A stretch of 64,000 nt of DNA from Micromonospora sp. FIMYZ51. Lineage in GTDB: Bacteria; Actinomycetota; Actinomycetes; Mycobacteriales; Micromonosporaceae. Position 1 is the stretch's first letter. Every line of letters begins with the position of its first letter. The position numbers and the translations under genes were made by a program. The stretch covers positions 1,054,001 through 1,118,000 of the forward strand of contig NZ_CP134706.1 in assembly GCF_038246755.1 (NCBI RefSeq), read 5' to 3'. The notes beneath the pieces are model-generated. The model did not search any database. It saw nothing but the letters and a program-made list of their open reading frames with translations, and was not told where the DNA came from. Positions 40,564 to 56,490 of the stretch are shown here, piece after piece.

Positions 40564-40636
40564 GGGGCCGTGGCGCAGCTGGTAGCGCACCACACTGGCA
40601 GTGTGGGGGTCAGGGGTTCGAGTCCCCTCGGCTCCA
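40564..40636 (+). tRNA. tRNA-Ala (anticodon GGC)
   Basis: A 73-nt cloverleaf: acceptor GGGGCCG pairing with CGGCTCC, D stem GCGC/GCGC, anticodon stem CCACA/TGTGG with loop CTGGCAG (anticodon GGC, reading GCC), variable GGGTC, T stem AGGGG/CCCCT with TTCGAGT. CCA is not encoded. A promoter lies upstream and an inverted repeat downstream. The accessory cluster starts after it, but I found no second copy of its 3' end. Confidence 0.95.
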
Positions 40637-40654
40637 CCTTGTGTTTGTGCAGGT

Positions 40655-40687
40655 CAATCGACGTCAGTTATCAACTGACGTCGATTG
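40655..40687. terminator. Perfect inverted repeat after tRNA-Ala
   Basis: Arms 40655-40669 (CAATCGACGTCAGTT) and 40673-40687, with a 3-nt loop. It begins 19 bp after the tRNA and probably terminates it. The sequence is less GC-rich than its surroundings. Confidence 0.65.
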
Positions 40688-41010
40688 CTTGTGATCTTGT
40701 GGTCACCGCCGTGGTCACACAGCGCCCCACACTTCGCCTCGGCGACCAGTGTTGAAACTCCCGAAGAAGTCGCCTCTGACCAGGGATTATTACGGGGCCC
40801 CGGCTGTTCACGCATACCTGGCCGAAATGTGGGGCGCAAAACCGTGTAGTACGGCGGTGCCGGCCCGTGTCGCTACGTTCAATTTCGTGTTTCCGATCGA
40901 CGGGGGTTCCGTGCCAAACGGCGCTCGGCGCTCGCCTGCGAGGATTCAGCCGCCGGGCCGCGGTCGAGCGGCTCCGGAAGGACTGAGGCCGTGTCCGTCC
41001 AGTCGCAGCC
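40688..41010. other. Gene-free stretch between tRNA-Ala and the ABC importer
   Basis: About 320 bp without a supportable gene; base composition is patchy and lower in GC than the flanks. On the minus strand the end of this stretch reads VTTAVTTRSQAIDVS, which resembles the extreme C-terminus of some actinobacterial integrases, but no integrase body precedes it. It may be the scar of an old insertion at the tRNA. Confidence 0.35.
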
Positions 41011-41787
41011 TCAGGGGACTTGGAGATCGATCGTGGGGGTCGCTGCGAGTAGGGCCTGCGTGTATGGGTGGCAAGGGATGGTGGTGATCTCCAGGGTCGG
41101 GCCCTGCTCGATGATTCGGCCGTCGCGCATGACCGCGATCCGGTCGGCGAGTTGTCGGACGACGGCGAGGTCGTGGGAGATGAACAAGCAGGCCAGGCCG
41201 AGCTGGTCTCGTAGATCGAGTAGTAGGTTGAGGATCTTCGCCTGGACTGACACATCGAGTGCGGTGACTGGTTCGTCGCAGACGAGCAGTCGTGGTCCGA
41301 GAGCCAGGGCGCGGGCTATCGCGACGCGCTGCTGTTGTCCGCCGGACAACTGGCGGGGCCGGCGCGTGCCGACCTGACGGTCGAGGCCGACGAGGTCGAG
41401 CAGTTCGTCGATCCGCGTGGACTGTGCTCGAGAGTCGCCGATCCGGTGGATGCGCAGCGGCTCGACGAGGGCTTGTCGTACCGTCTGGCGCGGGCTGAGG
41501 GTGAGGTACGGGTCCTGGAACACCATCTGGACGTGCCGCCGGTGTGCCCGCAGTGCTCGGCCGCGCAGGCTGTGGACGTCGACGCCGGAGAATCGGACCA
41601 CGCCGGTGCTGGGCCGGTGGAGTCCGGTGACAACGCGGGCGAGGGTGGTCTTGCCGCAGCCGGACTCGCCGACGAGCCCGACGATCTCGCCCGGCTCGAC
41701 GCGCAGGGTGACGTTCTCGATCACGTTCGCCCGGCCGCGGTCGTGGTGGTGGGGGTAGCCGGCGGTGACCTGCGCGATGTCCAGCAC
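41011..41787 (-). CDS. ABC transporter ATP-binding protein, oligopeptide/nickel type (DppF/NikE-like)
   Basis: A 258-residue ABC ATPase. Walker A GESGCGKTTL, Q-loop VFQDPYLTLSPRQTV, signature LSGGQQQRVAIARA and Walker B LLVCDEPVTALDVSVQ are intact, with the DppF-type SPR(x)TV segment. It lacks the long C-terminal iron-sulfur/oligopeptide tail of many DppF proteins and ends at HPYTQALLAATP. It is the last gene of the importer operon, 3 bp after the permease-ATPase fusion. Together with the other three genes it makes a complete importer with two different ATPase domains. Confidence 0.9.
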   Translation of the reverse strand: MLDIAQVTAGYPHHHDRGRANVIENVTLRVEPGEIVGLVGESGCGKTTLARVVTGLHRPSTGVVRFSGVDVHSLRGRALRAHRRHVQMVFQDPYLTLSPRQTVRQALVEPLRIHRIGDSRAQSTRIDELLDLVGLDRQVGTRRPRQLSGGQQQRVAIARALALGPRLLVCDEPVTALDVSVQAKILNLLLDLRDQLGLACLFISHDLAVVRQLADRIAVMRDGRIIEQGPTLEITTIPCHPYTQALLAATPTIDLQVP

Positions 41788-41790
41788 CGG

Positions 41791-43755
41791 TCAGGCCCTG
41801 TCCCGCTCGAGGGTAGCCCCGCCCACCAGAGTGTCCTCGCCGGACTGCTGGGGGCAGGTCGCATGGTGTGCCGGGCCGAGCGTCAGCAGCGCCGGCTGGT
41901 CATGGGTGCACGCGGTGACGGCGATGGGGCAGCGGGGGGCGAACGCGCAACCGTCGGTTTCGTCCGGGCCGGCGCCGGAGTGTCCGGGCATGGTGCGGAA
42001 CCGCGTGCCGGGTGGCGCGCCGGGATGCGGTACGGCGTCGAGCAGGCCGCGGGTGTAGGGGTGGGCCGGGTTCGCGAGCACGGTGGCGAGCGGTCCGGAT
42101 TCTACGATCCGGCCGGCGTACATGACGGCGACCGTGTCCGCGAGCCGGGTGACCACTGCCAGGTCGTGGCTGACGATGATCATGGCCATGCCCAGTTCGT
42201 CGCGGAGCCGGGCCAGCAGGTCGAGCAGTTGCGCCTGGACGGTGACGTCGAGGGCGGAGGTCGGTTCGTCGGCGACCAGCAGTTCCGGCTTGCCGGCGAG
42301 GGCGATGGCGATCTGTACCCGCTGCCGCATCCCGCCGGAGATCTGGTGGGGGAACTTGCCGGCGATACCGGCCGGGTCGGGCAGCTCGACAAGGTGTAGC
42401 AGCTCTTCGGTGGCCCGGCGGGTGGCGGCGCGCCGGCCGCCGCGTCCGGTGTTGCGGACGGCCTCGTCGACGTGCGCGCCGATGGTCCGCAACGGGTTGA
42501 GCGTGGCGAGGCTGTCCTGGAAGACTACGCCCACACGGCGGCCATTGATCTGGCGTCGCTCCCGCTGTGGAAGGTCGACGAGTTGGCGTGCCTGGGTGCC
42601 GGCTGCCAGGGTTGCCGACCCGGTGACGACCGCGCTGGGGTCGAGTAGCCCGAACGGCGCCATCGCGGAGGTGGTCTTGCCGCTGCCGGTCTCGCCGACG
42701 ATGGCCAGGACGTGTCCCCGGGGTACCTGGTAGGCGACGTCGGCGACGACCTGGCGGCGCCGGCCGTCGTGCGGATAGCTGACCGAGAGGTCCCGTACCC
42801 GCAGCAGGGTGCCGTTCTCGTCGGACATGGCCGGGGCGACGGTCGGAAGGGCCGCTGCCAGTGGCACGGTGGTGGCCCGGCGGGCGGACGGGGCGCGAAG
42901 ACGCGTCGGGAGTACCCAGCGCAGGATCGAGGGCCGTTCGTCGCCTGTGGCGAGACGCTCGCCGAGGAGGTTGCTGGCGAACACGACGGCGGTGATCGCG
43001 ATGCCGGGCGGGTAGGCAAGCCACCAGGCGGAGGCGAGGTGGGGGCGGCCCTCGATGAGCATCTGGCCCCACTCGGCGTGCGGTGGGGGGATGCCGAGGC
43101 CGAGGAAGCTGAGCGTGGCGACGCCGAGCACGATCGCGCCGACGTCGGTGCTGGCGTAGACCAGGCACGGGGCGAGGGCCGGTGGGAGCAGGTGCCGGCC
43201 GACGATGCGGGCGGGTCCGGCGCCGAGCAGCCGTAGGGCGTCCAGGTGCGGACTGCCGCGCAGGCCGGCGACGCGGGCGCGGGCGATGCGGGCGTACGGG
43301 GCCCAGGCCCACAGCGACATCGCGAGGATGAGGTTCTCCGCACCGGGACCGCGTACGCCGATGACGGCCAGGGCGACGAGCATGCCGGGTAGGGAGACGG
43401 CCATGTCGATGATCCGGGAGATGATCCGGTCGACCGGGCCGCCGAGGTAGCCGGCGACGGTGCCGGTGACGCCGCCGACGGTCAGCGAGATCGTCAGGAC
43501 CGCTGCCGTGACCGCGAGGGAGATCTGGGCGCCGTGCAGGATTCGGCTGAGCTGGTCGCGGCCGAGTTGGTCGGTGCCGAGGGGGTGTTCCGCCGACGGC
43601 GGCAGCAGGCTGGCCGCCAGGTCGGTGGCGGTCGGGTCGGCCGGGGCGAGCAGCGGCGCCAGCAGCCCCACGATCGCGAACGCGAGCAGCGGCAGGGCGA
43701 CCAGCGTGGTGCGCACGGACGGTGGGATGGCTCGGCGGCGGTGTCGGACGTTCAT
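41791..43755 (-). CDS. Fused ABC permease (DppC/NikC-like) and ATPase (DppD/NikD-like)
   Basis: A 654-residue fusion. Residues 1-290 form a DppC-type permease with about six helices and the HPLGTDQLGRDQLSRILHGAQ motif near the start and the EAA-like loop YARIARARVAGLRGS. After a short linker, residues about 330-654 are an ABC ATPase: Walker A GETGSGKTTS, signature ISGGMRQRVQIAIA, Walker B LLVADEPTSALDVT and the DppD C-terminal Cys-containing tail (GCAFAPRCPIAVTAC, then TCPQQ). ATG 43755 overlaps the stop of the upstream permease (ATGA). Such fusions are known in actinomycetes; it fixes the subunit ratio. Confidence 0.9.
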   Translation of the reverse strand: MNVRHRRRAIPPSVRTTLVALPLLAFAIVGLLAPLLAPADPTATDLAASLLPPSAEHPLGTDQLGRDQLSRILHGAQISLAVTAAVLTISLTVGGVTGTVAGYLGGPVDRIISRIIDMAVSLPGMLVALAVIGVRGPGAENLILAMSLWAWAPYARIARARVAGLRGSPHLDALRLLGAGPARIVGRHLLPPALAPCLVYASTDVGAIVLGVATLSFLGLGIPPPHAEWGQMLIEGRPHLASAWWLAYPPGIAITAVVFASNLLGERLATGDERPSILRWVLPTRLRAPSARRATTVPLAAALPTVAPAMSDENGTLLRVRDLSVSYPHDGRRRQVVADVAYQVPRGHVLAIVGETGSGKTTSAMAPFGLLDPSAVVTGSATLAAGTQARQLVDLPQRERRQINGRRVGVVFQDSLATLNPLRTIGAHVDEAVRNTGRGGRRAATRRATEELLHLVELPDPAGIAGKFPHQISGGMRQRVQIAIALAGKPELLVADEPTSALDVTVQAQLLDLLARLRDELGMAMIIVSHDLAVVTRLADTVAVMYAGRIVESGPLATVLANPAHPYTRGLLDAVPHPGAPPGTRFRTMPGHSGAGPDETDGCAFAPRCPIAVTACTHDQPALLTLGPAHHATCPQQSGEDTLVGGATLERDRA

Positions 43756-44804
43756 GTCGTCTCCGTCCGAGGGCGTGCCGTGGTCTCGCCGGTGCCACTG
43801 CGCACCGGTTGGCGCCATCGCTGGCGGGGCGGGCGGTGGTGTGTTTCGGCGTCGCGGCGGGATCGGGGGTCGATGAGGGCCTGTGCGACGTCGGCGAGGC
43901 GGTTGGCGAGGATGAATCCGCCGCCGAGGACGAGCGCGCTGGCCTGTAGCGCTGGCACGTCCCGGGCTGCGGCGGCCTTGACGAAGTAGGCGCCGAGGCC
44001 GGGCCAGCCGAAGATCTGCTCCACGACGATGGTTCCCACCAGCAGGGTGCCGACGGTGAATCCGGCGACGGACAGGATCGGCCCGGCGGCGTTGGGCAGG
44101 CCGTCGCGGAGCACGATCGACGTCGGTCGGCTGCCACGGGCCAGGGCGGCGAGCACGTACGGCCGGTCGAGCGCCTCGCGCAGCGTCACGGCCACCACCC
44201 GGCTCAGCGCACCGGCAGCCGGCAGCCCGAGCACCGCCAACGGCATCACCCAGGTCGTGGACCCCGCCATCCCCGAGGTCGGCACCAGTCTCAGCCGCAA
44301 CGCCAGCACCAGCACCAGCAGATAGCTCAGCCAGAACGCCGGCACCGACGTGGCCAGCAGCGCTGCGGTGCGCAGGGCTCCGCGCGCCAGGCCGCGTTCG
44401 AACACCGCCCCGGCGACGCCGACTGCCACGCCGACCACGAGGGCCAGCACGGCGGAGCCGGCGACCAGCCCCAGCGTCACGCCCATCCGGTCGGCGATCT
44501 CCGGGCCGATGGGTGTGTTCGTCCGCAGCGACACCCCGAAATCGCCGGTTACCGCGTCGGCGAACCACCGCAGGTACCGCAGCGGGGCGGGGGCGTCCAG
44601 ACCGAGTTCGGCGCGGACGGCCTCGACCTGCTCGGGCGTGGCGGGCCGGCCGGCCCGGGTCGCGGCCAGCATCGCCGCCGGATCACCGCGCGCGAGCAGC
44701 ACGAGCGCGAAGGTGCCGGCGGACAACGCCACGAGTACGCCGACGGTGTCGACGAGCCACCGCGCGAGGTAGCGTCCGGCGGACCGCAGCCGTCGTGTCC
44801 TCAC
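43752..44804 (-). CDS. ABC transporter permease, oligopeptide/nickel type (DppB/NikB-like)
   Basis: A 350-residue permease with about six helices: one at 15-35, then the long periplasmic part with GDFGVSLRTNTPIGPEI (typical DppB), helices at about 105-125, 135-155, 175-190, 225-250 and 275-295. The EAA loop reads LREALDRPYVLAALARGSRPTSIVLRDGLPNA. A charged, Arg/Thr-rich tail of about 40 residues follows. Its start overlaps the stop of the solute-binding protein and its stop overlaps the next start, so the four genes are translated as a unit. Confidence 0.9.
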   Translation of the reverse strand: MRTRRLRSAGRYLARWLVDTVGVLVALSAGTFALVLLARGDPAAMLAATRAGRPATPEQVEAVRAELGLDAPAPLRYLRWFADAVTGDFGVSLRTNTPIGPEIADRMGVTLGLVAGSAVLALVVGVAVGVAGAVFERGLARGALRTAALLATSVPAFWLSYLLVLVLALRLRLVPTSGMAGSTTWVMPLAVLGLPAAGALSRVVAVTLREALDRPYVLAALARGSRPTSIVLRDGLPNAAGPILSVAGFTVGTLLVGTIVVEQIFGWPGLGAYFVKAAAARDVPALQASALVLGGGFILANRLADVAQALIDPRSRRDAETHHRPPRQRWRQPVRSGTGETTARPRTETT

Positions 44805-46357
44805 CCGACGGTGACCGCGGTCAGTTTGAGGTCGACGTCGCTGGGCGAGACCGCGAAGCCGTTCACCCCGTCACGGACCGCCCACATTCGGGGCCGGTAG
44901 ACCAACGGCACGAACCCGGCGTCGGCGGCGACGGCGTCGTAGAGATTCTGGTAGGCCACCGTCCGGGCGGTCGGGTCGGCGGCGAACAGCGCCTTGTCGA
45001 CGAGACCCTCGATGGCCGGCGTCGCCCACAGCGGCGCCCGCGCCTCGTCGGTGAACAGGGAAACGATCGAGCTGGACGGGTCGTACGGCGCGCCGAGGGT
45101 TTCGAAGAACGTGATGTCGTATCTGCCCTCGGCGCGCTCGTCGTAGTAGACGGCGGCGTCGACCGGGACGATCTCGACCCCGATACCCACCTCCTTCAGC
45201 GCAGCGGCGATCGCCGAGGCCGTGGTGCGCGGGTCGAGTTGTCCCTCCGCCGGGGTCGCCGGAATCAGCAGCCGCAGCGAGAGTCGCTTTCCGTCCTTGA
45301 CCCGGGTGTCGCCGTCGCGCACGTAGCCGGCCGCGTCCAGCACGCTGCCGGCGGCGGCCTTGTCGAAGCCGACCGGCAAATCGGCGCCGGAGTCCGGCAC
45401 TCCCGGCGGGAACACTCGCCGGGCCGGTTCGGCGTAGTCCAGGAACAGCGCCTTCGCCATTGCGGCGGTGTCGATCGCTTTGCCGACAGCCTGACGTACG
45501 GCCTTGTCGCCGGCCGGGCCGTCGGGGTTGAACCCGAGCATGATCGAGACGTCCGGGGCGCCGGTGAGCAGCTTGACGTCGTCGCGGCCGTCCAGGGACT
45601 TCGCCTCGACCGGGGTTATCGGGGCCAGGTAGGGGCCGCCGATCAGGTCGATCTCGCCATTGGTGAGGGCGTCGACGCGGGCCTGGGAGTCCGGGATGAC
45701 CTTGAATTCGAGACGTTCCAGGCGCGGTTTCTCCCCCCAGTAGTCGCCGTTGCGTTCCAGGGTGGCGCCGGTCGCCGTGTTGGAGACCAGCTTCCACGCG
45801 CCGGTGCCGACCGGGTTCTGAAACGTCCCGTCAGCGGCGGCCGACTTCGGGCTGAGTAGCCGGACCGGGCGCACGATCGACAACTCCTGCAGCAACGGTT
45901 CGTACGGCTCGGACAGGGTGAGCCGGACAGTGTCTGGATCCGGGGCCTCGACGGCGGAGATGACCTGCGACGCCCGGAAGAACGAGAAGCGTTTGTTGCC
46001 GACCCACCGGTCGAAGTTCCACTTGACGGCGGCAGCGTCCAGCGGTGTCCCGTCGGTGAAGCGTACGCCGTCGCGCAGGTCGAGGGTCACCTGTTTGCCG
46101 CCCTCGGCGACGGTCCACGACTCGGCGAGGCCCGGCTCCAGCCGCCCGTCCTCGCCGTAGCTGACCAGCGGCTCGTAGATCGCGTCGAGCAGCAGGAAGT
46201 TGCCGGTGAACGCGTGCGGGTCCAGCGGACCCGACTCCGCGCTCATCCCGATGCGCAGGACGGTGGTTGAGCCGGCATCACCGGAGTCGGAGCTACACGC
46301 GCTGACGAGCGCGACCGACACGGCGAGGGCGGTGACGAGGGAACGTGATCGCGGCAC
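44801..46357 (-). CDS. ABC transporter solute-binding lipoprotein, nickel/peptide type (NikA/DppA-like)
   Basis: A 518-residue lipoprotein of family SBP_bac_5. The signal peptide ends in a lipobox (VALVSAC, lipid Cys at about 21). The mature protein has LRIGMSAESGPLDPHAFTGNFLLLDAIYEPLVSYGEDGRLEPGLAESWTV, as in NikA/CntA-type binders, then GTGAWKLVS and DITFFETLGAPYDPSS. The NikA-like opening and the SSSIV segment suggest a nickel-chelate or metallophore ligand rather than plain oligopeptides; this is an inference. GTG 46357 follows AGGAG. First gene of the importer operon, divergent from the MFS gene. Confidence 0.85.
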   Translation of the reverse strand: MPRSRSLVTALAVSVALVSACSSDSGDAGSTTVLRIGMSAESGPLDPHAFTGNFLLLDAIYEPLVSYGEDGRLEPGLAESWTVAEGGKQVTLDLRDGVRFTDGTPLDAAAVKWNFDRWVGNKRFSFFRASQVISAVEAPDPDTVRLTLSEPYEPLLQELSIVRPVRLLSPKSAAADGTFQNPVGTGAWKLVSNTATGATLERNGDYWGEKPRLERLEFKVIPDSQARVDALTNGEIDLIGGPYLAPITPVEAKSLDGRDDVKLLTGAPDVSIMLGFNPDGPAGDKAVRQAVGKAIDTAAMAKALFLDYAEPARRVFPPGVPDSGADLPVGFDKAAAGSVLDAAGYVRDGDTRVKDGKRLSLRLLIPATPAEGQLDPRTTASAIAAALKEVGIGVEIVPVDAAVYYDERAEGRYDITFFETLGAPYDPSSSIVSLFTDEARAPLWATPAIEGLVDKALFAADPTARTVAYQNLYDAVAADAGFVPLVYRPRMWAVRDGVNGFAVSPSDVDLKLTAVTVG

Positions 46358-46572
46358 GGACTCTCCTGGTGGGGTTGGCAGGTCAGGGCACGGCGGATGG
46401 CCGGGGGACGTTCCCGCATCAGTAGTCGGCTTCATCACGCGGCTGGTTCCCGAAAACTTGCCGTGACAGACGGTCCGTTCCGAAGACGGGTAGGGTCCGG
46501 CCTGGTCGCCAACACGACGACAGCAGGCAGATCGGGCGGTCTCGGGTGCGGGATCGGGCCGGGAGGTCACGG

Positions 46573-46647
46573 GTGAGCTGGTACGCGGCACGGAGCCGTC
46601 GTTTCGGCGAAGCGTCCCTGGCTGCGGCGCGGGCGCCGGTCGGCTGA
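46573..46647 (+). pseudogene. Remnant of a methyltransferase gene 5' end, coupled to the MFS gene
   Basis: A 24-codon frame begins with GTG AGC TGG TAC (VSWY), preceded by CGGGAGGTCACGG. The same ribosome site and first codons open the methyltransferase at 52416, with one extra G here. After VSWY the sequence diverges, and a TGA overlaps the MFS ATG as TGATG at 46645-46649. The methyltransferase-MFS order matches that at 52416-54316. I read it as a methyltransferase copy lost by internal deletion whose start still couples MFS translation; a small leader peptide is the alternative. Confidence 0.5.
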
Positions 46648-47900
46648 TGGCGGCCCCGACATCGTCCCGGACCGGGTCGGTCGCGCGTAACCGTCTGCTG
46701 TCGTTGCGGGATCACCCCTTCACGGGCGCCCAAATCGCGTTGCTGCTGGGTGGTCTCCTGGTCAACGTCGGCTCGTTCTCGGTCTATCCGTACCTGGCGG
46801 TTCTGCTGCGCGACCGGACGGGGCTCGGGATGGCGCAGGTCGGGGTCGTGCTCGGGGCCGCCACGCTGGTGCAGTTCGCCAGCGCCCCGCTCAGCGCGGC
46901 GCTGGCCGAGCGGATCGGGCTGCAGCGCTCGCTGCGCGGTGCCATGGTCCTCTACAGCCTCGGCGGCGGCGCCTTCCTTCTCGGAGCGACAGGCCCGGTG
47001 TCCACCGTCGTGGGACTGTTCCTCATTTCCAGCGGAGGTTCGCTGTATTCACCGGCGTACCGCAGCTACCTGGTACACGGAGCCGACCCGCAGCAGCGGC
47101 CCCGGCTGGTCTCTGCCGGCAACGCCGCCAGCAACCTGGGCGTCGCCCTCGGGCCGGTGCTGGGCGCCCTGCTCATCCAGCGTCCGAGCAGCATGTTCGC
47201 GGTCGTCACGGTGGTCTACGCCATTCTCGGGGTCTGGCACTTCTTCCTGCCCAGGGAGCGGATGGTCCCCGACGCCCCGCCGGTCGAGCCGTATCACCGG
47301 ATGTTGCACGGCATCGTGGTGCTGCCCTTCGTCGTCACCGCCCTGTCGGTCTACCTCTACATGCAGTTCTACCAGTACCTCTCCAGCTACGCGGAGGGCC
47401 GAGTAGCCGCGCTGTTCTACGGCGTGGCGATGATGGGTTACTCCCTCGGGCTGGTCCTCGTGCAGCCCCTCGTGGCGCACCGGGTCGAGCGGATGAGCCA
47501 TCCGTCGGCGATGGCGATCGGTTTCGGCTTCCTGGCGACGGGGATGGTCGCGTTCGCCGGTGGAAACATGTTCACGATCGGGGCCGGAGTCGCGGCGATC
47601 AGCGTCGGCAACGCGGTGCTCTTCCTCAAGAACGACCTTATGGCGTTGGCGGGCTCGAAGCGGTCAGCGACGGCCGTCTTCGGTCAGCAGCGGCTGGCCG
47701 TAGGGGTCGGTTCCTTCCTCAGCGGTGTCGTCGGCGGCAGCGTGTACGGACTCTTCGAGCGGGCGGGTCAGCTGTCGGGGTTCTGGCTGGTCGTGGCCGC
47801 CCAGTGCATCCTGCTTCCGCCGCTGGTGGTGGCGGTGGTTCGGCGCCTGCGTCGGCTCGTCCCCAGAACCGAGGAGGTTCGGAGCGCCCGATCGGGTTGA
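46647..47900 (+). CDS. MFS transporter (first of two paralogues)
   Basis: A 417-residue major facilitator with 12 predicted helices. FSVYPYLAVLLRDRTGLGMAQVGVVLG (helices 1-2 and the A-loop), AERIGLQRSLRGAM (motif A region) and QFYQYLSSYAEGRVAALFYGVAMMGYSLGL (helix 7-8) are typical of drug/product exporters. It is clearly paralogous to the MFS at 53135; both share SVYPYLAVLLRD, SSYAxGRVxAxFYG, and VFGQQRLAxGxGxFLSG. Export of the cluster product is the likely role. Its last 237 bp overlap the convergent PLP-enzyme gene. Confidence 0.87.
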   Translation: MAAPTSSRTGSVARNRLLSLRDHPFTGAQIALLLGGLLVNVGSFSVYPYLAVLLRDRTGLGMAQVGVVLGAATLVQFASAPLSAALAERIGLQRSLRGAMVLYSLGGGAFLLGATGPVSTVVGLFLISSGGSLYSPAYRSYLVHGADPQQRPRLVSAGNAASNLGVALGPVLGALLIQRPSSMFAVVTVVYAILGVWHFFLPRERMVPDAPPVEPYHRMLHGIVVLPFVVTALSVYLYMQFYQYLSSYAEGRVAALFYGVAMMGYSLGLVLVQPLVAHRVERMSHPSAMAIGFGFLATGMVAFAGGNMFTIGAGVAAISVGNAVLFLKNDLMALAGSKRSATAVFGQQRLAVGVGSFLSGVVGGSVYGLFERAGQLSGFWLVVAAQCILLPPLVVAVVRRLRRLVPRTEEVRSARSG

Positions 47901-48965
47901 TAGGCGGCGCCGGTGCCCGATGTGTTCCTGGACGGGGGGATAGGGCCGCTGATCCCAGTCCATCGTCGACCACGGCGGTGTCAGATCTCTGAGGGTATCG
48001 ATCTCGGTGGGCTTCAGCGCGGCTCGGTCCAGCGCATCCCGGTGCCGGGTAAAGACCTTGTCCACGTACCGGTGCCCCGTGTCCGCGCCGATGACGAGAT
48101 GCTCGCGTCCGGGGTGACGCTGTGCCTCCCACGCCGCTACCAGGAAGGCCGCTCCGGTGGACAGGCCGGCGAAGACGGCGTGCGTACGCATCAGGTCGAT
48201 CGTGCCGGCCATGGCGTAGTGGAAGGTCAGCCAGTGCACTTGGTCGTAGAGGTCGGGGCGGACGTTGTCGAAGGGGATGGCGCTGCCGATACCGGCGATG
48301 ATTGCCTCGGGGTCCTGGAAGCGTTCGCTGCCGAAGCTGACGCTGCCGAACGGCTGGACCCCGACCAGTCTGGCCGCCGGATCGTGCCGGCGTAGCGGCT
48401 GGATCAGGCCGGCGCTCGACGCGCCGGTGCCGACGCTGGCCACCACAGTCAGGGGCCTGTCGGGCAGCGCGACGTGCACCAGGCCGGCCAGCTCGGCGTA
48501 CCCGAGGTAGTGGATGGGGTCGTGGTACTGACGCATCCAGTGCATGCCGGGGTTGGCGCGCAGCAGCTGACGGATCCGCGCGACCCTGCGGTCCTGATCG
48601 AGGCGCAGGTCGGACTCGGCCGGCATCTGGTCCACCGTCGCGCCGAGGATCTCCAGCTGTGACCGGATCGTCGGTGTCACGGTGGTCGAGGCGACGATGT
48701 GGCAGCGGAGATCGTAGCGGTGACAGACCATGGCCAGAGCCAGTGCGTAGATGCCGCTCGAACTGTCGATGACGGTGTCTCCGGGCCGTACGGTGCCGTC
48801 GGCGAGCAGTGCCCGGACGGCGCCGAGAGCGGCGTAGATCTTTAGCGTCTCGAACCGGACGAGCACCATGTTCTCCGACAGGCGGATGAGGCTGGGCGCT
48901 CTGACGGCATCGGTGACATGACCGTGGACGGTCGCGGAGACATCGGGCGGGACCATGAACGGCAT
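47664..48965 (-). CDS. PLP-dependent enzyme of the cysteine synthase / diaminopropionate synthase fold
   Basis: A 433-residue fold-type II PLP enzyme. K42 in VLVRFETLKIYAALGAV takes the place of the Schiff-base Lys (41-42 in cysteine synthases), DSSSGIYALALAMV is the asparagine/serine loop in altered form, VVASVGTGASSAGLI is the phosphate-binding loop, and FAGLSTGAAFLVA follows. The usual PxGSxKDR context is absent, so it is a divergent homologue, perhaps making a beta-substituted alanine as SbnA-type enzymes do. Homology ends near residue 355; the last 78 residues are read antisense to the MFS gene end and look like read-through after stop loss. ATG 48965 fits the start. Confidence 0.75.
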   Translation of the reverse strand: MPFMVPPDVSATVHGHVTDAVRAPSLIRLSENMVLVRFETLKIYAALGAVRALLADGTVRPGDTVIDSSSGIYALALAMVCHRYDLRCHIVASTTVTPTIRSQLEILGATVDQMPAESDLRLDQDRRVARIRQLLRANPGMHWMRQYHDPIHYLGYAELAGLVHVALPDRPLTVVASVGTGASSAGLIQPLRRHDPAARLVGVQPFGSVSFGSERFQDPEAIIAGIGSAIPFDNVRPDLYDQVHWLTFHYAMAGTIDLMRTHAVFAGLSTGAAFLVAAWEAQRHPGREHLVIGADTGHRYVDKVFTRHRDALDRAALKPTEIDTLRDLTPPWSTMDWDQRPYPPVQEHIGHRRRLSTRSGAPNLLGSGDEPTQAPNHRHHQRRKQDALGGHDQPEPRQLTRPLEESVHAAADDTAEEGTDPYGQPLLTEDGRR

Positions 48966-49281
48966 GGGCGGTCGTCCCTCGTGTCGTGCCGCCGGGGCAG
49001 GGCGGCAGGGCGGCAAGTGTGCGAGACCAGTTATCTCCGTCGATTTTCTGGTCCCCCCGGGTAGGTCGCGCGCACGACTGCGTTAGTTCCGGCGCCGGGG
49101 GTCGTCGCCGAGGACGAATCAACCGAATGTTGCGGGAACCAGGCGCGGTATGCGGCCGACCAGCTCAGCGGGCGAAGGTGCCCGGCGTGCTCCGCGACCT
49201 GCGGACTGGATCACGGTGACTTGCCCACAATGGACGGCAGTCGATCGGAACTCTTTGGTCTGCCCGCCCGACATATTCAAC
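48966..49281. other. Divergent region between the PLP enzyme and ATP-grasp genes
   Basis: About 315 bp. It holds the promoters of both divergent genes. In-frame alternatives for the ATP-grasp start (GTG 49216, ATG 49150) lie here. CATATT at 49272 could be a -10 box for a leaderless message starting at GTG 49282, but no -35 is clear. No separate gene is seen. Confidence 0.35.
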
Positions 49282-50505
49282 GTGACCATTGCGTGCCTCG
49301 AGATGCTCTCCTTCGGCCTTGCCCATCTCGCCAGGGCCGCCCACTCTTCGGGCGAACGGCTGGCGCTGCTGACCGGTGTCGAGTCGCTCTACCTCCACGA
49401 GCTGGCCACGCTGCCGCCCGGCACGATCGACGTCGTACCGGTCGACACGCACGACCGCCAGGCGGTCACCGAATCCCTGCACGCGATCGGTGACCTGCGG
49501 GGCCTGATCAGCTCGACGGACACCTGGGGAGTGATCGGCGCCGAGCTCGCCGCCGAGTTCGGCCTGCCCGGCATCGATCCGGCGGTGATCCGGCTGGTGC
49601 GCGACAAGGCCCGCGTCCGCGATCTGCTGAACCAGAAGAGCCTGAGCCCGGTGGCGCCCTTCGGGGTGGACGATCCGGCCACGGTGAGCCTCGACCGGCT
49701 CGCGTCGGCCGTCGGGCTGCCCGCCGTCGTCAAGGACACGGCCGGCACGAGCAGCGCGAACGTGTGGCTTGTCCGGGACGCCGACGACCTCGCCCGGCTC
49801 CGCCGCGAGGCCGCGGACGCAGCGCTGTTCGGGAGCCTGTTCGCCGAGCCGTTCCTGGCCGGGCCCGTCTACAGCGCCGAGACCCTGACCTGGGCCGGGC
49901 AGACCCGGCTGCTGGGGCTGTCGAGCCGCCTCATGTCGGCCCAGCCCTGGTTCCGGGAGGACGTGACGGCATTCCCCGTGGCGCTGCCACCCGCCGAACT
50001 CCGCGAAATCGAGGTGTGGCTCGGGGAGGTGCTGGCGGTCCTCGGGTACACCGACCGGTTCGCCCACATCGAAATCGCCATGACCACCCACGGACCCCAG
50101 CTGATCGAGGTGAACCCCCGCATCGGCGGTGCGCTTGTCGGCGAGTCGATGTGCCGCGCACTCGGGGTCAACGTCTACGCCGCCCTCGTCGACCTCGCGC
50201 TCGGCCACCGCCCCCGCCTGCTCGACGCGGCCCTGCCCGGCGGCCCGGCGGTGGCGTTCGTCCTGGCCTACCCGGATCAGGCCGGTGAACTCGTTGCCGT
50301 GAACGGAATCGACGACCTCGACCGCTATCCGGGGCAGCCGCGATGGTATCCGACCAAGGCGATCGGCACACAGGTCGCGCACGTCACCGACGGGCGCGGC
50401 TACGCGGGCATCGTGCTCGCCGAGGGCCCGACCGCAGAGATCGCCACGCACCGTGCCGTCGCCGCGGCGGGCGCCGTCCACGTCCGCACCCGGCCGTCGT
50501 GCTAG
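49282..50505 (+). CDS. ATP-grasp ligase, dipeptide-ligase-like
   Basis: A 407-residue ATP-grasp enzyme. The preATP domain starts VTIACLEMLSFGLAHLARAA; VRDKARVRDLLNQKSLSPVAPF opens the ATP domain; LPAVVKDTAGTSSANVWLV contains the ATP-binding Lys; and HIEIAMTTHGPQLIEVNPRIGGALVGESM carries the metal-binding Glu and Asn of BacD/carnosine-synthase/DdaF-type amino acid ligases. It most likely joins two amino or carboxylic acids through an acyl phosphate. Start GTG 49282 is set by homology; GTG 49216 is an alternative. Its stop overlaps the convergent methyltransferase by 4 bp. Confidence 0.82.
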   Translation: MTIACLEMLSFGLAHLARAAHSSGERLALLTGVESLYLHELATLPPGTIDVVPVDTHDRQAVTESLHAIGDLRGLISSTDTWGVIGAELAAEFGLPGIDPAVIRLVRDKARVRDLLNQKSLSPVAPFGVDDPATVSLDRLASAVGLPAVVKDTAGTSSANVWLVRDADDLARLRREAADAALFGSLFAEPFLAGPVYSAETLTWAGQTRLLGLSSRLMSAQPWFREDVTAFPVALPPAELREIEVWLGEVLAVLGYTDRFAHIEIAMTTHGPQLIEVNPRIGGALVGESMCRALGVNVYAALVDLALGHRPRLLDAALPGGPAVAFVLAYPDQAGELVAVNGIDDLDRYPGQPRWYPTKAIGTQVAHVTDGRGYAGIVLAEGPTAEIATHRAVAAAGAVHVRTRPSC

Positions 50506-51239
50506 ACACGTCGGCCGCGCACAATCAGCCGCCGGGCATGGTTGTCGAACGGCTCCGCATCGAAGCCGCCGAAGCAGTCGACCTCGGCGAAACCCGCCGC
50601 GCGAAGCATCGCCTTGAGCTCAGCGGCGCTGTAGAGGGCATGCTCGACGACGGCCGTACGCGTCTGGCCCTCCCGGACCAGGAGGAAGTCGTCCCGGAAC
50701 CGGGTCCAGTCGTCCAGGACCGTGCCGCGCACGAGCAGCGTTCCGCCGTCGACGTCGATGATCTTCGGTTCGTGGCCGTCGCGGGCCGCGATCTCCTTGC
50801 CGTACATGTCGACGAGCATCCGACCGCCAGGCTTGAGACTGGCCAGCACATTGCGCAGAACACGCATGTTCTGCGCGTGGTCGGCGAACAACCCGAACGA
50901 CGTGTACATGCTGATCGCGAGGTCATACCGGTCCGGCTCGACGAACTCACGCATGTCCGCCCGGACGAGCCGGACGTCGACACCGGAGGCGGACGCGGCC
51001 GTCGCGGCCCGGTCGAGCAGCGCCGCGCTGAGGTCCACGCCGGTGACCGTGGCGCCCCGGCGGGCCAGCGGAATCGTGTACGTCCCCGGCCCGCACCCCA
51101 GATCCAATACGGCGGCCCCGGCCGGCAGGCGCAGCAACGGAGACGCGGCCACCCGCGCCTCGGCTTCGGCGGCACGCTCGGCGGAGAACATCACCTCGGT
51201 GAACCCGGTCCACAGCGCCTCATCCTCGAACCACTCCAT
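50502..51239 (-). CDS. Class I SAM-dependent methyltransferase (first of two paralogues)
   Basis: A 245-residue Rossmann-fold methyltransferase. Motif I is VLDLGCGPGTYTIPLARRG, the acidic ribose contact is VTGVDLS, motif post-I RADMREF, and the motif MYTSFGLFADHAQN precedes the substrate lid. It shares its whole length with the methyltransferase at 52416: both start with W-[FY]-E-[DE]-x-[AS]-LW-[ST]-GF, have FSAERA, MYTSFG and RLIVRG near the end. Substrate unknown; N- or O-methylation of the cluster product is likely. ATG 51239, divergent from the epimerase gene. Confidence 0.85.
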   Translation of the reverse strand: MEWFEDEALWTGFTEVMFSAERAAEAEARVAASPLLRLPAGAAVLDLGCGPGTYTIPLARRGATVTGVDLSAALLDRAATAASASGVDVRLVRADMREFVEPDRYDLAISMYTSFGLFADHAQNMRVLRNVLASLKPGGRMLVDMYGKEIAARDGHEPKIIDVDGGTLLVRGTVLDDWTRFRDDFLLVREGQTRTAVVEHALYSAAELKAMLRAAGFAEVDCFGGFDAEPFDNHARRLIVRGRRV

Positions 51240-51337
51240 TCACTGCTCCATCCGCCGCCGTTGATGTCCGTCGTGTCTAACAGTCGCGGCCGGGCCCGGT
51301 CTGGTTCCGGCAGGCCGCACATCGGGAGGATCCGCCC

Positions 51338-52348
51338 ATGGAACTGTCCGTCCGTCGCGAGACGCTGCGGCTCGTCGAGGTGGTGCGAAGCTCGCGTGGC
51401 GAAATCGACTCCGTCGCAACCTGCATGGTCACCCTGACGCACGACGGGATCACCGCCTACGGCGAAGGCACACCGACCGGGTACGACGGCGTCACCGCGG
51501 ACGACGTCGTGGCGGCGATCGACGTCGGAGGAGCGGCGGCGCTCGGACGGGATCTGCGGGACCCGGCGGCCGTCCTCGACCGGATCAGTCGGTGGGACGC
51601 ACCGGCGGGCGCCCGGATGGCACTCGACGGCGCCGTGCACGACTGGATCGGCAAGGCCGCCGGGCAGCCGACCTGGAAGCTGTCCGGGGCGGCCCGGACG
51701 CTCGGGCCGACCGTCTACACGATCTCGATGGCCGGACCTGAGGAGGCGGCGAGCGCGGTCCGGAACGCACCGGGAGTGGGCGCCTTCAAGGTGAAGGTCG
51801 GCGGCCCCGGCGACATCGAGACCCTCGAAGCGATCCGGGCGGTGACCACGCTGCCGGTCCGGATCGACGCCAACGAGGCGTGGGACCTTGCGACCGCCCG
51901 CGCACTCACTCCTCGGCTACGGCGGCTCGGCATCCAGTTGATCGAGCAGCCGTTCCCGGTGACCGCGATCGACGACTACCACCGCTACCGGGAGGTGCCC
52001 GACCGGCTGCCGGTCTTCCTCGACGAGGGCTGCACCGACGAGGCGAGCGTGCTGGCCGCCCGGTCGTACGCCGACGGCTTCGTCGTGAAGCTGTGCAAGG
52101 CCGGCGGGATCCGCAGCGCACGGCGGGTCATGGAGGCCGGTCGACGGGCCGGCCTCGGAACCATGATCAGCTGTATGTGCGAATCGGAACTCGCCATCAG
52201 CCAGGCCGCGCAGCTCGCACCGCTGGCCGACCACATCGACCTCGACGGCCACCTGTACCTGCGGGAGCCGCCGTTCCAGGGCCTCGGTCTCCAGGACGGC
52301 CGGATCGTCCTCGGCGACGCACCCGGTCTGGGCGTCGTGCCGTCCTGA
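51338..52348 (+). CDS. Enolase-superfamily dipeptide epimerase
   Basis: A 336-residue muconate-lactonising-subgroup enzyme. Catalytic Lys pair: K151/K153 in FKVKVGG on one face and K251/K254 in VVKLCKAGG on the other. Metal ligands are D177 (RIDANEAW), E203 (LIEQPF) and D229 (FLDEGC). The C-terminal DLDGHLYL carries the DxD motif that binds the N-terminal ammonium of dipeptides in L-Ala-D/L-Glu epimerases, so a dipeptide substrate is well supported. ATG 51338 follows CGGGAGGA. It is the first gene of a four-gene operon and, with the ATP-grasp ligase, points to a dipeptide intermediate. Confidence 0.88.
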   Translation: MELSVRRETLRLVEVVRSSRGEIDSVATCMVTLTHDGITAYGEGTPTGYDGVTADDVVAAIDVGGAAALGRDLRDPAAVLDRISRWDAPAGARMALDGAVHDWIGKAAGQPTWKLSGAARTLGPTVYTISMAGPEEAASAVRNAPGVGAFKVKVGGPGDIETLEAIRAVTTLPVRIDANEAWDLATARALTPRLRRLGIQLIEQPFPVTAIDDYHRYREVPDRLPVFLDEGCTDEASVLAARSYADGFVVKLCKAGGIRSARRVMEAGRRAGLGTMISCMCESELAISQAAQLAPLADHIDLDGHLYLREPPFQGLGLQDGRIVLGDAPGLGVVPS

Positions 52349-52415
52349 GGAACTTTCCCGGTCATCGATGCGACATGTTGACAGGACGCGGGACACCGCA
52401 GGACGGGAGGTCACG

Positions 52416-53138
52416 GTGAGCTGGTACGAGGATCTGTCCCTGTGGTCCGGCTTCTCGGACGTGCTCTTCTCCGCCGAGCGGGCGCGACAGGCCGCCGACC
52501 TGGTGGCCACCTCGCCGCTGCTGGCATTCCCGCCGAGAAGCCGCGTACTCGACCAGTGCTGCGGTGTCGGCTTCTTCTCGGCACCGCTGGCCCGCCAGGG
52601 CTACCGAGTGACCGGCGTCGACATCCATCGTGAGCTATTCGAACGAGCCGAGGCCGAGGCCGAGGCGTCGTTCGTGCGCGCGGACGTGCGTGAGTACGTG
52701 TCACCGGACGCGTTCGACGTCGTGGTGAACATGTACACGTCGTTCGGGTATTTCGACGAGCACGACGACAACGTCCAGGTCTTGCGCAACGCGTACCGCT
52801 CCCTGGTGTCCGGTGGGGTGTTGATCGTGGATCTGTTGAGCAAGGAGATCTACGCCTCCTGGGTCGGGCCACCGAAGATCGTCGACGTGCCCGGCGGCAT
52901 GGTGGTCATGCGCGACACGATCCTCGACGACTGGACCCGCTATCGCACCGACTGGACGCTGGTCCGCGGGAACAACGCCGAGCACACCTCGCTCACCTGC
53001 TGGGTCTACAGCGCCGCCGAACTGAAAGACATGTTCATCCAGGCCGGGTTCGAGAAGGTCCAGTGCTTCGGCAACTTCGACGGCGGACCGTACGACGGCG
53101 CAGCCACCCGACTGATCGTCCGGGGAACCAAGGCGTGA
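52416..53138 (+). CDS. Class I SAM-dependent methyltransferase (second of two paralogues)
   Basis: A 240-residue methyltransferase. Motif I appears as VLDQCCGVGFFSAPLARQG, with CCG in place of GCG, followed by VTGVDIH, FVRADVREY and NMYTSFGYFDEHDDN. GTG 52416 follows GACGGGAGG at ideal spacing. The stop overlaps the MFS start (GTGA). It is paralogous to the gene at 50502. The same ribosome site and first codons are found in the remnant at 46573. Confidence 0.87.
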   Translation: MSWYEDLSLWSGFSDVLFSAERARQAADLVATSPLLAFPPRSRVLDQCCGVGFFSAPLARQGYRVTGVDIHRELFERAEAEAEASFVRADVREYVSPDAFDVVVNMYTSFGYFDEHDDNVQVLRNAYRSLVSGGVLIVDLLSKEIYASWVGPPKIVDVPGGMVVMRDTILDDWTRYRTDWTLVRGNNAEHTSLTCWVYSAAELKDMFIQAGFEKVQCFGNFDGGPYDGAATRLIVRGTKA

Positions 53139-54316
53139 CAGGCATTCGCTGGTTCACCCGGGTGCAACTCGCGCTGCTCGGAAGCGGGTTTTTCGTCAAC
53201 CTGATCAACTTTTCGGTGTACCCGTACCTGGCGGTTCTGCTCCGCGACCGGATGAGTCTGGGCATGGACCAGGTGGGTCTCATCCTGGGGCTCGCGACGT
53301 TCCTTCAGTTCGCCGGCGGGCTGCCGGGCGCGGCCCTCGCCGAGCGACTCGGCCTGCAACGGTGCCTGCTGGTCGCGATGGTGCTGCAAACACTCGGCTC
53401 GCTGGGCTTTCTCGTCGGCGGCGCCTGGCCAGCGCTGACGATCGCCGCGCTGTTCCTGCGATCGGCGGCCTCGGCGGTCTACTCGCCCAGCGTTCGAGGC
53501 TATACGGTGCTCGGCGCGACCCCGGACGAGCGGCCACGGCTGGTGTCGGCGAGCTACGCCACGGGCAACGTCGGCATCGCGCTCGGGCCGGTGGCGGGCG
53601 CGCTGTTCATCCACGACCCGGCCGCGATGTTCGCCGTCGCCACCGCGCTGCACGTGGCAATGACGATCGGGCACGCCTACCTGCCCACGGAGCGGGGCGA
53701 CAAGCAGGAGGCGGTCGAGCCGCTGCGCCGAGCGTTGAACGGCACGGCGGTGCTGCCGTTCGCCGTGACCGCCCTGACCCTCTACCTGCACATGCACTTC
53801 TACCAGTACCTGTCGTCGTACGCGCAGGGCCGGGTGCCGGCCGTGTTCTACGGGTCGGCCATGATGGCCTATTCGCTGATCCTGGCCGTGATCCAGCCGC
53901 TGATCTCCACATGGGTCGAGCGGATGCGATACCCGCACGCGATGGCCCTCGGCTTCGGCGGCCAGGCCGTCGGCATGCTCGCCTTCACCGTCGGGAACGA
54001 GATCGCGATCGCCGCCGGAATCCTCGCTATCGGCGCGGGCAACTCGGTGATCTTCCTCAAGAACGTCCTTGAAGCGCTCGCCCGTACGCAGCGATCTCCC
54101 ACGGTCGTCTTCGGCCAGCAGCGGCTCGCCGAAGGCGCCGGCGCGTTCCTCAGCGGTCTCGCGGGCGGTGGCCTCTACCACCTGTTCGAGTCCATTGGAA
54201 ACCTTCCCGGATTCTGGCTGGCCATCGCCGCGCAATGCCTGCTCCTGCCGCCGATCGTGCTCCTCGCAGACCGCATGCTCCGTCGCCCCACACTCGAACC
54301 GGCAGGTGTGTCATGA
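53135..54316 (+). CDS. MFS transporter (second of two paralogues)
   Basis: A 393-residue, 12-helix major facilitator closely related to the one at 46647, but without its 20-residue N-terminal extension. FSVYPYLAVLLRDRMSLGMDQVGLILG, AERLGLQRCLLVAM and HFYQYLSSYAQGRVPAVFYG are conserved between them. It begins at GTG 53135 within the methyltransferase stop and ends in an ATGA overlap with the monooxygenase gene, so the three are co-translated. Export of the product or of a variant is likely. Confidence 0.87.
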   Translation: MTGIRWFTRVQLALLGSGFFVNLINFSVYPYLAVLLRDRMSLGMDQVGLILGLATFLQFAGGLPGAALAERLGLQRCLLVAMVLQTLGSLGFLVGGAWPALTIAALFLRSAASAVYSPSVRGYTVLGATPDERPRLVSASYATGNVGIALGPVAGALFIHDPAAMFAVATALHVAMTIGHAYLPTERGDKQEAVEPLRRALNGTAVLPFAVTALTLYLHMHFYQYLSSYAQGRVPAVFYGSAMMAYSLILAVIQPLISTWVERMRYPHAMALGFGGQAVGMLAFTVGNEIAIAAGILAIGAGNSVIFLKNVLEALARTQRSPTVVFGQQRLAEGAGAFLSGLAGGGLYHLFESIGNLPGFWLAIAAQCLLLPPIVLLADRMLRRPTLEPAGVS

Positions 54317-55470
54317 ACCCGGCAGACGCGATCACCACCGCCCATGCTATCGCCGAGAGGCTCCGCGCGGACGCCGTGGAGCGGGACCACGCCAACCGAC
54401 CGCCGCAGGCCGAGATCGAGCTGCTCCGCGACAGCGGCCTGCTCGCCCTCGACCCCGACGACCACCCGACCACCCACGCCGTCACCCGGATCGTGGCGGC
54501 GACCGACGCCTCGATCGGTCACCTCCTCGGCTATCACTACCTCCATCTGTGGCGAGCCTCGCTCTACGACAACGCCGAGCTGGCGACCTCGCTGCGCCAG
54601 GAGGCCGCCACCGGCCGGGTATTCGTGGCCGCCGTCAGCAACCAGCGCGACACCATCACGGCCGCCCTGACCGGCGACGCGGTCACCGTGTCCGGTCGGG
54701 GCGCGTTCGCCACCGGCTGCGCGGTCGCGGACCGCCTGCTCGTCAGCGCGATCCGCGACGACCACACGGCACGCCTGGTCGTCGTCACGCCTGGTACCGG
54801 CGGCGGAATCTCGCACCCACCAGACTGGGACAACCTGGGCCAACGCTCGACGGCGAGCGGAAGCATCGCCTTCGACAACGTCCGGGTCACCCGAGGCGAC
54901 GTGCTGGGCACGTTCCCGGCCGACGAAGAGGCATCCAACCCGGGCCGCCTACGCCTGTCCCTCGTATCGCTGGCCTTCCAGGCGGTACTCACGCAGGTCC
55001 TCGTCGGCGTCGCGAACGGCGCGCTCGACGAGGCCGCCAGGTACACGCGGACGCATTCGCGCCCCTGGCCCGCGAGCGGGCTGGAGCGGGCCGTCGACGA
55101 CCCGCACGTGCTCGCAGGTTACGGGGAACTCGCCGCGACACTGGACGCGGCCCGCCTTCTGGCCGACGACGCGACCCGCGCCCTCGCCGAGGCCGACACC
55201 CGGGGTCTCGCCCTGACCCCGACCGAACGTGGCCGGGCGGCGCTGACCGTCTCTGCCGCGAAGGTCGTGTCCAGCCGGCTGGCGACCGAGGCGACCAGCC
55301 GGATCTTCGAGTTCACCGGCGCCCGTGCAACGGCCCGTACGACCGGCCTCGACCGGTTCTGGCGCGACGCCCGCACGCTCACCCTGCACGACCCCGTCGC
55401 ATACAAGGCCCGGGAACTCGGCACCTTCCTCCTCACCGGCCGGTACCCACCCATGACGGCATACAGCTGA
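54313..55470 (+). CDS. Acyl-CoA dehydrogenase-fold flavin monooxygenase (SfnB/DszC-like)
   Basis: A 385-residue protein with the acyl-CoA dehydrogenase fold: an N-terminal helical domain (AHAIAERLRADAVERDHANRPPQAEIELLRDSGLLAL), a beta domain (FATGCAVADRLLVSAI, SIAFDNVRVTRGDVLG) and a C-terminal helical domain (IFEFTGARATARTTGLDRFWRDARTLTLHDPVAYKARELG). The RFWRDART(L)TLHDP segment is typical of FMNH2-dependent DszC/SfnB-like monooxygenases and replaces the catalytic Glu of true dehydrogenases. Hydroxylation of N, S or C in the cluster product is likely. Last gene of the epimerase operon. No flavin reductase is in the cluster, though the azoreductase at 5.7 kb shows that such enzymes exist. 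Confidence 0.8.
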   Translation: MNPADAITTAHAIAERLRADAVERDHANRPPQAEIELLRDSGLLALDPDDHPTTHAVTRIVAATDASIGHLLGYHYLHLWRASLYDNAELATSLRQEAATGRVFVAAVSNQRDTITAALTGDAVTVSGRGAFATGCAVADRLLVSAIRDDHTARLVVVTPGTGGGISHPPDWDNLGQRSTASGSIAFDNVRVTRGDVLGTFPADEEASNPGRLRLSLVSLAFQAVLTQVLVGVANGALDEAARYTRTHSRPWPASGLERAVDDPHVLAGYGELAATLDAARLLADDATRALAEADTRGLALTPTERGRAALTVSAAKVVSSRLATEATSRIFEFTGARATARTTGLDRFWRDARTLTLHDPVAYKARELGTFLLTGRYPPMTAYS

Positions 55471-56434: not shown

Positions 56435-56490
56435 CAGAACTCCTCAGGGTGTTGCTGCCATGTTGATGCTCTTGCCACTATCTTGCAACA

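Follow-up and report, generated by a model that had tools for sequence, protein, structure and literature searches.

We analyzed a 64,000-nt stretch (the window) of the 7.05-Mb, single-contig genome of Micromonospora sp. FIMYZ51 (NZ_CP134706.1, positions 1,054,001 to 1,118,000) and identified a gene cluster at window positions 40,655-55,470 that is likely to constitute a metallophore (chalkophore) system for copper starvation, controlled by a SigC-type extracytoplasmic function (ECF) sigma factor. The sequence gave us the genes themselves, a promoter box shared among them, a conserved biosynthetic core, an importer that is swapped between loci and, in one orthologous cluster, copper genes. An earlier note on this DNA had proposed a metallophore cluster, possibly of dipeptide type, that works without nonribosomal peptide synthetases (NRPS). 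The genes it named were a ligase, an enolase with a DxD motif, a pyridoxal phosphate (PLP) enzyme, two methyltransferases, a monooxygenase, two major facilitator superfamily (MFS) proteins and an importer. Pfam and NCBIfam scans of the cluster genes, by which we called gene families, and alignments agreed with all of these assignments; the annotation covered the window from 31 kb onward.

A shared promoter box and a conserved core

Alignment of the upstream regions of the orthologues revealed a conserved GGGAACC ... CGACT element. The pattern GGAACY-N16-CGAC was found at seven sites in the window, six of which fell within 40,655-55,470, while spacings of 10-15 and 17-22 gave 0-1 sites each. 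The GGAACC-N16-CGAC form occurred three times in the 64 kb, always in the cluster, against an expectation of 0.37, and three or more such sites were seen in 0 of 100 shuffles. The boxes, for which 'SigC-type' serves as a label, precede the operon of the solute-binding protein (SBP; 46425-46450, minus strand, GGAACC form), the PLP-enzyme gene (49065-49090, minus strand, GGAACT form) and the two methyltransferase genes, MT1 (51283-51308, minus strand, GGAACC form, 69 nt 5' of the gene) and MT2 (52349-52374, plus strand, GGAACT form, 67 nt 5' of the gene). Two boxes stand before the ligase gene on the plus strand, a GGAACC form at 49135-49160 and a GGAACT form at 49247-49272, the latter 35 nt 5' of the probable start.

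A scan with one genome per species found relatives of the PLP enzyme at 40 named loci in Micromonospora, Plantactinospora, Spongiactinospora, Sphaerisporangium, Actinomadura, Amycolatopsis, Saccharothrix, Actinokineospora, Goodfellowiella, Saccharopolyspora and Streptomyces. Within the same genus, 45 of 151 genomes had a match at E <= 1e-20, mostly a distant one, and across the class the PLP family, including a sister group described below, was sporadic (25 of 394 genomes at E <= 1e-80). We defined family A as the 45 loci with a PLP match of at least 65% identity, adding same-genus regions and removing second copies (L077-L080 and L091, which correspond to L038, L042, L043, L039 and L076, respectively) and fragments. 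Also excluded was L090 (a PLP fragment), and L097-L101 and L187 fell outside the 45. Eleven of the loci are from Amycolatopsis, so the locus counts are not counts of independent events. Micromonospora haikouensis carries the cluster twice, on two contigs (L038 and L076), with differing gene orders. Outside family A, a Streptomyces xanthii plasmid (L099; NZ_CP061282.1) holds a PLP relative (49%) and a ligase (46%) in another setting, where more ATP-grasp genes occur together with genes for an aspartate kinase and for a methylaspartate mutase and no importer is listed; PLP-ligase pairs of this kind may serve other products.

By tblastn all 45 loci had the ligase and 43 had an MT1/MT2-family methyltransferase, the other two being contig fragments, so the grouping of these families, whose co-occurrence the earlier note had proposed to search for, is not due to chance. 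The remaining genes were patchy: an MFS gene of this family was detected in 25 loci, the enolase in 12, a cytochrome P450 in 9, the DszC-like monooxygenase in 6 and an FhuF-like gene in 4. Since the PLP enzyme, the ligase and the methyltransferase are near-universal in the 45 loci, these three form the core, to which the other genes are additions. A pathway using every gene of the set, as first suggested, thus reduced to a minimal path of PLP enzyme, ligase and methyltransferase, with the enolase and the DszC-like enzyme as accessories. The box followed this core: 101 of 150 sites in the 45 loci were located within -40 to 200 nt of the start of a core-gene match, and 40 of the 45 loci had such a site. 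Among other spacings, 12, 14, 15, 17, 18 and 20 gave no site and 19 gave one, while the 23 sites at spacing 13 arose because CGACGACT holds CGAC twice, 3 bases apart, as in Amycolatopsis. The GGAACC form was counted 90 times in the true sequences and twice in the reversed ones.

FcoT (PF10862), a marker of the isonitrile lipopeptide pathway, was present in 9 of 394 class genomes, and PF10862 had no match in the FIMYZ51 genome. In 11 FcoT regions we found 17 GGAACY-N16-CGAC sites as compared to 0-6 at other spacings; the sites were distributed over seven of the 11 regions, and 12 of the 17 lay near the start of an open reading frame. The CGACTA form gave eight sites (in 4/11 regions), whereas none of the other spacings between 10 and 22 gave any. 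The cluster and a chalkophore-type pathway therefore share a promoter, with one spacing and near-identical halves, and SigC would be the factor that reads both.

Importer exchange and enzyme families

The importer is encoded on the minus strand by four genes: an ATP-binding cassette (ABC) ATPase of the OppF/NikE type (41011-41787; Pfam ABC_tran and oligo_HPY), a fused permease C-ATPase D in a single frame (41791-43755; BPD_transp_1, ABC_tran and oligo_HPY; start read from the sequence), permease B (43752-44804; NCBIfam Opp2B/NikB, under the cut-off) and a family-5 solute-binding lipoprotein (44801-46357; SBP_bac_5), which probably starts at GTG 46357, judging by sequence and orthologues. Across family A the importer was of the Opp/Nik type in 10 loci, a FecBCD set in 22 and a second FecBCD set in 7, and in 6 there was none in the stretch examined. 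The FecBCD-type set carries a Peripla_BP_2 SBP, which in L064 and L065 is seen alone. An ENO-MFS-PLP-MT-ligase-MT block is common to L081 and L083 (Opp) and to L082 (Fec), with the importer swapped at the same place, and a PLP tree of the 39 rows with an importer required at least two changes between the types (a quick tree with some unresolved forks, from which L076 was omitted as a fragment). Chelates of nickel, cobalt and zinc are the cargo of NikA-type importers, and iron is usually that of the FecBCD type. Because two unrelated metal-chelate importer classes serve one core, which is hard to explain otherwise, the product appears to be a metallophore. The earlier note had named separate occurrence of importer and biosynthetic genes, with unrelated partners, as the outcome that would count against it; the importer did prove exchangeable, and its replacement is another metal-chelate importer. 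The idea of a metallophore with re-import was strengthened by the single type of promoter that precedes the SBP, PLP, ligase and methyltransferase genes and by the pairing of the core with both importer classes.

If the product were instead an antibiotic or a signaling small peptide exported by the MFS proteins, the Opp-type importer would be a chance neighbor that takes up nutrients. ATP-grasp ligases with MFS proteins make dipeptide antibiotics elsewhere (e.g., bacilysin), and both the sporadic distribution and the plasmid-borne PLP-ligase pair without a listed importer (L099) would suit such a product. However, the SBP and the biosynthetic genes stand under a common promoter box, the importer genes are directly 5' of the ligase on the same strand in L038, L040, L041 and L044, and 39 of the 45 loci have an importer of either metal-chelate class; we give this alternative a slim chance.

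Family assignments of the importer are less specific than its class. The SBP scored 322.4 bits against nikA (TIGR02294), short of the cut-off of 393, and its best PDB match was 4wed (356 bits), which has an unspecific name. The nearest named structures were NikA of the Brucella and E. coli type (202-244 bits) and CntA (198 bits), with DppA at no more than 85 bits and OppA at 58 bits. The SBP was no nearer to other nickel-binding proteins than to DppA (SaNikA 54, YpYntA 54, 4oet 85 and 3t66 92 bits). For the ATPase at 41011-41787 the best NCBIfam model was PRK11308, followed by NikE, and neither reached its cut-off.

The PLP enzyme (47664-48965, minus strand; Pfam PALP) belongs to fold type II and is 66-92% identical to the named orthologues in the best segment. 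Its best NCBIfam model was SbnA (TIGR03945; 134.1 bits, cut-off of 349.95 not reached), SbnA was also its best PDB match, and in the alignment the SGN loop is replaced by SGIY. The ligase (49282-50505, plus strand; LAL_C2 and ATP-grasp_4) is of the L-amino-acid-ligase type, with BL00235 as the nearest solved relative (49 bits). MT1 (50502-51239, minus strand) and MT2 (52416-53138, plus strand) are paralogous class I methyltransferases (Methyltransf_25), and the two MFS exporters (MFS1, 46647-47900; exporter 2, 53135-54316; both plus strand, MFS_1) are likewise paralogues. The enolase-superfamily protein (51338-52348, plus strand; MR_MLE_C) is a predicted epimerase of the DgcA/dipeptide-epimerase type: its KxK, D, E, D and K positions and the C-terminal DxD all align with those of solved dipeptide epimerases, and its DgcA score was 185 bits (cut-off of 400 not reached). 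The DszC/SfnB-like flavin monooxygenase (54313-55470, plus strand; Acyl-CoA_dh_2) scored 241 bits for SfnB and 239 bits for DszC, both under the NCBIfam cut-offs. Among the cluster genes scanned there was no match to NRPS, polyketide synthase (PKS), nicotianamine synthase or opine dehydrogenase, in line with the earlier statement that NRPS, PKS and opine enzymes are absent; nor did these genes contain a Pfam match to an IucA/IucC-type synthetase, the marker of NRPS-independent siderophores (NIS), or a recognizable SbnB homologue.

From these data we infer the sigma factor that reads the box, the chemistry, the metal and the direction of transport. On copper shortage the sigma factor would read GGAACY-N16-CGAC before the SBP operon and before the PLP-enzyme, ligase, MT1 and MT2 genes. 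The PLP enzyme would form a beta-substituted alanine, perhaps a diaminopropionate-like or aminopolycarboxylate unit, and the ATP-grasp ligase would couple it to a second amino acid or an amine. The product would be methylated by one or two methyltransferases and, in this branch, tailored by the epimerase and the flavin monooxygenase; the terms dipeptide, epimerization and hydroxylation stand for such predicted steps. The MFS pumps would then export the ligand, and the copper complex would re-enter through the ABC importer.

SigC, copper and competing metals

An ECF gene that is 48-59% identical to one of the FIMYZ51 genome was found in 16 of the 45 loci. The ECF of Goodfellowiella (L062) passed the NCBIfam SigC model (221.2 bits, cut-off 219), and its two best PDB matches were the two M. 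tuberculosis sigma-C domains. The FIMYZ51 genome has two SigC-like genes (L124 and L125) whose products are 56% and 54% identical to the L062 ECF and have the sigma-C N-terminal domain as their top PDB match. One of the two is downstream of putative csoR, copZ and copA genes (read by eye). A GGAACC-N16-CGAC box stands before it, and another before a convergently oriented zf-HC2 gene that may encode an anti-sigma factor. The other adjoins CopC/CopD and DUF1775 genes. In P. mayteni (L037), the closest orthologue, a CopC gene lies between the PLP and MFS1 genes, and the interval from MFS1 to the SBP contains genes for PCuAC, a DyP peroxidase and CopC; DJ-1 and PepSY_TM genes are also present. CopA-like matches occur at the edges of L097 (52%), L075 (34%) and L043 (29%). 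SigC of M. tuberculosis is reported to turn on the nrp operon and to protect the cell from copper starvation (PMC7924339, PMC9600254), and the sigma-C regulon of C. glutamicum is described, with reference to other work, as activated on copper deprivation, with a defect of the aa3 oxidase as the supposed signal (PMC7337898). The metal is thus probably copper. A ligand that buffers or detoxifies copper, exported to keep the metal out and recycled by the importer as ligand only, would fit the putative csoR, copZ and copA genes beside the SigC-like gene. We consider it very improbable, since the reports cited tie SigC to copper shortage and not to excess (PMC7924339, PMC9600254) and a dedicated importer is encoded.

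Another possibility is a metallophore for iron, nickel, cobalt, zinc or several of them, in which the sigma factor answers a failing respiratory chain and the ligand feeds an iron or mixed supply. This is unlikely, although the usual cargo of NikA-type and FecBCD-type importers, the FhuF-like genes in four Saccharothrix loci, the FhuF-like and ferric-reductase-like genes together in L097 and the zinc (Zur) boxes of the sister clusters all speak for it. Zur boxes were scored by counting mismatches to a Zur consensus. With at most two mismatches none was found in family A (0/45), as compared to 12 of the 22 sister loci (19 sites, 0 in the reversed control); with at most three mismatches the counts were 2/45 and 17/22. 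We recounted with this consensus alone because a count with three patterns, two of them copied from sister loci, was partly circular (at most two mismatches, 0/45 vs 15/22; at most three, 6/45 vs 21/22). The single three-mismatch Zur site of the window is inside MT2. For regulation by iron, IdeR/DmdR sites with at most five mismatches were sought across the loci; the only one, in L072, is not within 600 nt 5' of a core gene, and the window had no such site below seven mismatches. For regulation by nickel (Nur), the only one-mismatch Nur-like site of the window (56472) precedes a superoxide dismutase gene and not the cluster. The copper genes in the P. mayteni cluster and the box held in common with FcoT loci also argue against another metal.

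The sister family (L086-L089 and L168-L185; 22 loci) has PLP relatives that are 52-59% identical in 21 of 22 loci and 48% in L185 (tblastn). DUF364 ('putative heavy-metal chelation') was found in 22/22, MFS in 18/22 and a FecBCD permease and ATPase in 18/22, and tblastn detected no ligase and no MT1/MT2-family methyltransferase. GGAACY-N16-CGAC was not enriched there (9 sites vs 1-13 at other spacings). In L089 the neighboring genes include putative zinc-independent ribosomal protein genes, read by eye, and a CobW-type gene. The sister family is accordingly described here as a candidate zincophore pathway, possibly related to ethylenediaminedisuccinate (EDDS); we found no description of it in the open-licence literature searched. 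L186, which has a PLP match of 44% and a ligase and lacks DUF364, was placed outside the 22. The FIMYZ51 genome also holds a distant paralogous cluster (L092, C1:4664001-4684000; ~35%) with ligase, DUF364, PLP, enolase, MFS, methyltransferase and Opp-type importer genes, in which neither a SigC-type nor a Zur box was found.

Several observations weigh against a copper system under SigC. No SigC-like gene was present among the window genes scanned, the two of this genome being 0.2 and 0.5 Mb away (one of them at 565 kb), and the other ECFs scored below the SigC cut-off of 219 (L124 161.7, L125 153.5 and L097 152.7), L124 and L125 having PRK12535 as their best NCBIfam model and SigC second. Copper genes were seen inside the cluster in one locus (L037), FhuF-like genes near five loci (four of Saccharothrix and L097) also suit iron, and sigma-C of C. 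glutamicum may sense the aa3-oxidase defect rather than copper. As for the box, we detected no copy ahead of MFS1 or of the enolase gene, and five of the 45 loci had none before a core gene (L064 and L065, at contig ends, and L071, L072 and L084). It is unspecific genome-wide, with 12 CGACT matches in the FIMYZ51 genome vs 6 in the reversed control and a modest enrichment of the CGACW form in 11 genomes (14-33 per genome vs 6-14 reversed). Four of the 11 FcoT regions lacked a site, and the FcoT -35 half is mostly GGAACT, the GGAACC form showing no excess (2 at N16 vs 1-4 elsewhere). In addition, PLP-ligase pairs occur with other partners on Streptomyces plasmids (L099 and L100).

Known systems and genomic setting

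Few chalkophores have been described, all of them, as far as is known, products of NRPS, NRPS/PKS or ribosomal biosynthesis. Chalkophomycin (PMC11085572) and the diisonitriles (PMC9600254) are precedents of that kind. The diisonitrile lipopeptide chalkophores (nrp/FcoT; SF2768 and M. tuberculosis nrp) resemble our system in the N16 box of the same form in 7/11 FcoT regions and in the link between SigC and copper starvation. In contrast, the cluster genes scanned include no NRPS, the genome has no FcoT, and a PLP enzyme, an ATP-grasp ligase and a methyltransferase are encoded together with an ABC importer. Staphylopine-type opine metallophores (Cnt) are likewise NRPS-free, with an exporter and a family-5 SBP importer, and the SBP matched CntA at 198 bits; unlike Cnt, the scanned genes show no nicotianamine-synthase or opine-dehydrogenase match and the promoters are of the ECF type. 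With staphyloferrin B the cluster shares SbnA as the best NCBIfam and PDB match of its PLP enzyme, but the score is under the cut-off, SGIY takes the place of the SGN loop and no SbnB homologue was recognized. The zinc-box sister family is alike in its related PLP enzyme and its FecBCD genes and differs in its Zur boxes, its DUF364 and in that no ligase or MT1/MT2-type methyltransferase was found. Amycolatopsis japonicum makes the zincophore [S,S]-EDDS (aes genes), described in PMC4993170 as an actinobacterial chelator outside the NRPS and NIS routes. EDDS is under Zur according to PMC4993170 and PMC9252823, whereas family A had 0/45 Zur sites at up to two mismatches; on this comparison of Zur control we set aside an EDDS identity for the cluster.

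Among the titles and abstracts listed by searches of open-licence PubMed Central papers, none describes this cluster, which is weak evidence of absence. There is a slightly better than even chance that it represents a further chalkophore route without NRPS, PKS or the machinery of ribosomally synthesized and post-translationally modified peptides (RiPP), spread over at least five actinobacterial families, and that it is one branch of a metallophore superfamily in which a single PLP scaffold answers to SigC for copper or to Zur for zinc and is served by interchangeable importers. Being small and having an importer of its own as well as a SigC-like promoter, the cluster would make copper acquisition in soil actinomycetes directly testable, and the box can guide searches for copper-acquisition genes that are overlooked by homology. 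Since a single enzyme family has SigC-type boxes in one branch and Zur boxes in another, it would serve as a natural experiment on how the metal of a metallophore is set.

In the layout of the cluster, the ligase probably starts at GTG 49282 rather than at the listed ATG 49150, judging by sequence and orthologues; ATG 49150 is disfavored because it lies inside a promoter box. The same evidence suggests that MT2 probably starts at GTG 52416. The PLP frame overlaps the 3' end of the convergent MFS1 by 237 nt (47664-47900), and this tail of ~79 residues is therefore encoded antisense to MFS1; the matches to orthologues stop short of the end of the frame, and the conserved part ends near 47889.

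A tRNA-Ala(GGC) gene (40564-40638, plus strand; ARAGORN) marks the left edge of the variable stretch. In eight relatives, identity with the window stops at this gene or at most 240 nt beyond it, and the 3' end of the tRNA recurs 9-15 kb downstream in L214, L216 and L218, so the gene looks like an integration hot spot. The window has no exact repeat of at least 12 bases of the tRNA-Ala 3' end, and no right border can therefore be named. As possible empty sites, the regions around the superoxide dismutase gene of three genomes (G001, G002 and G008) were compared with the window; they resemble it at that gene and scarcely anywhere else, except that G001 also matches a short stretch of the importer gene AbcCD. 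The right flank is thus variable. G001 carries a 143-nt tRNA-end-like stretch 2 kb from its superoxide dismutase gene, and none was seen in G002 or G008. Beside the cluster, at 57228-61466, an AbiEi/AbiEii toxin-antitoxin pair is followed by DUF3375 and DUF4194/MksE genes, which we take to be a Wadjet/Mks-type defence system. The Nur-like box at 56472-56488 (one mismatch to the Nur pattern) lies immediately 5' of the gene for an Fe/Mn superoxide dismutase (55820-56434, minus strand), of which the genome holds a partial second copy (C1:636845-637222) that is 87% identical over residues 79-204 and contains an internal TAA.

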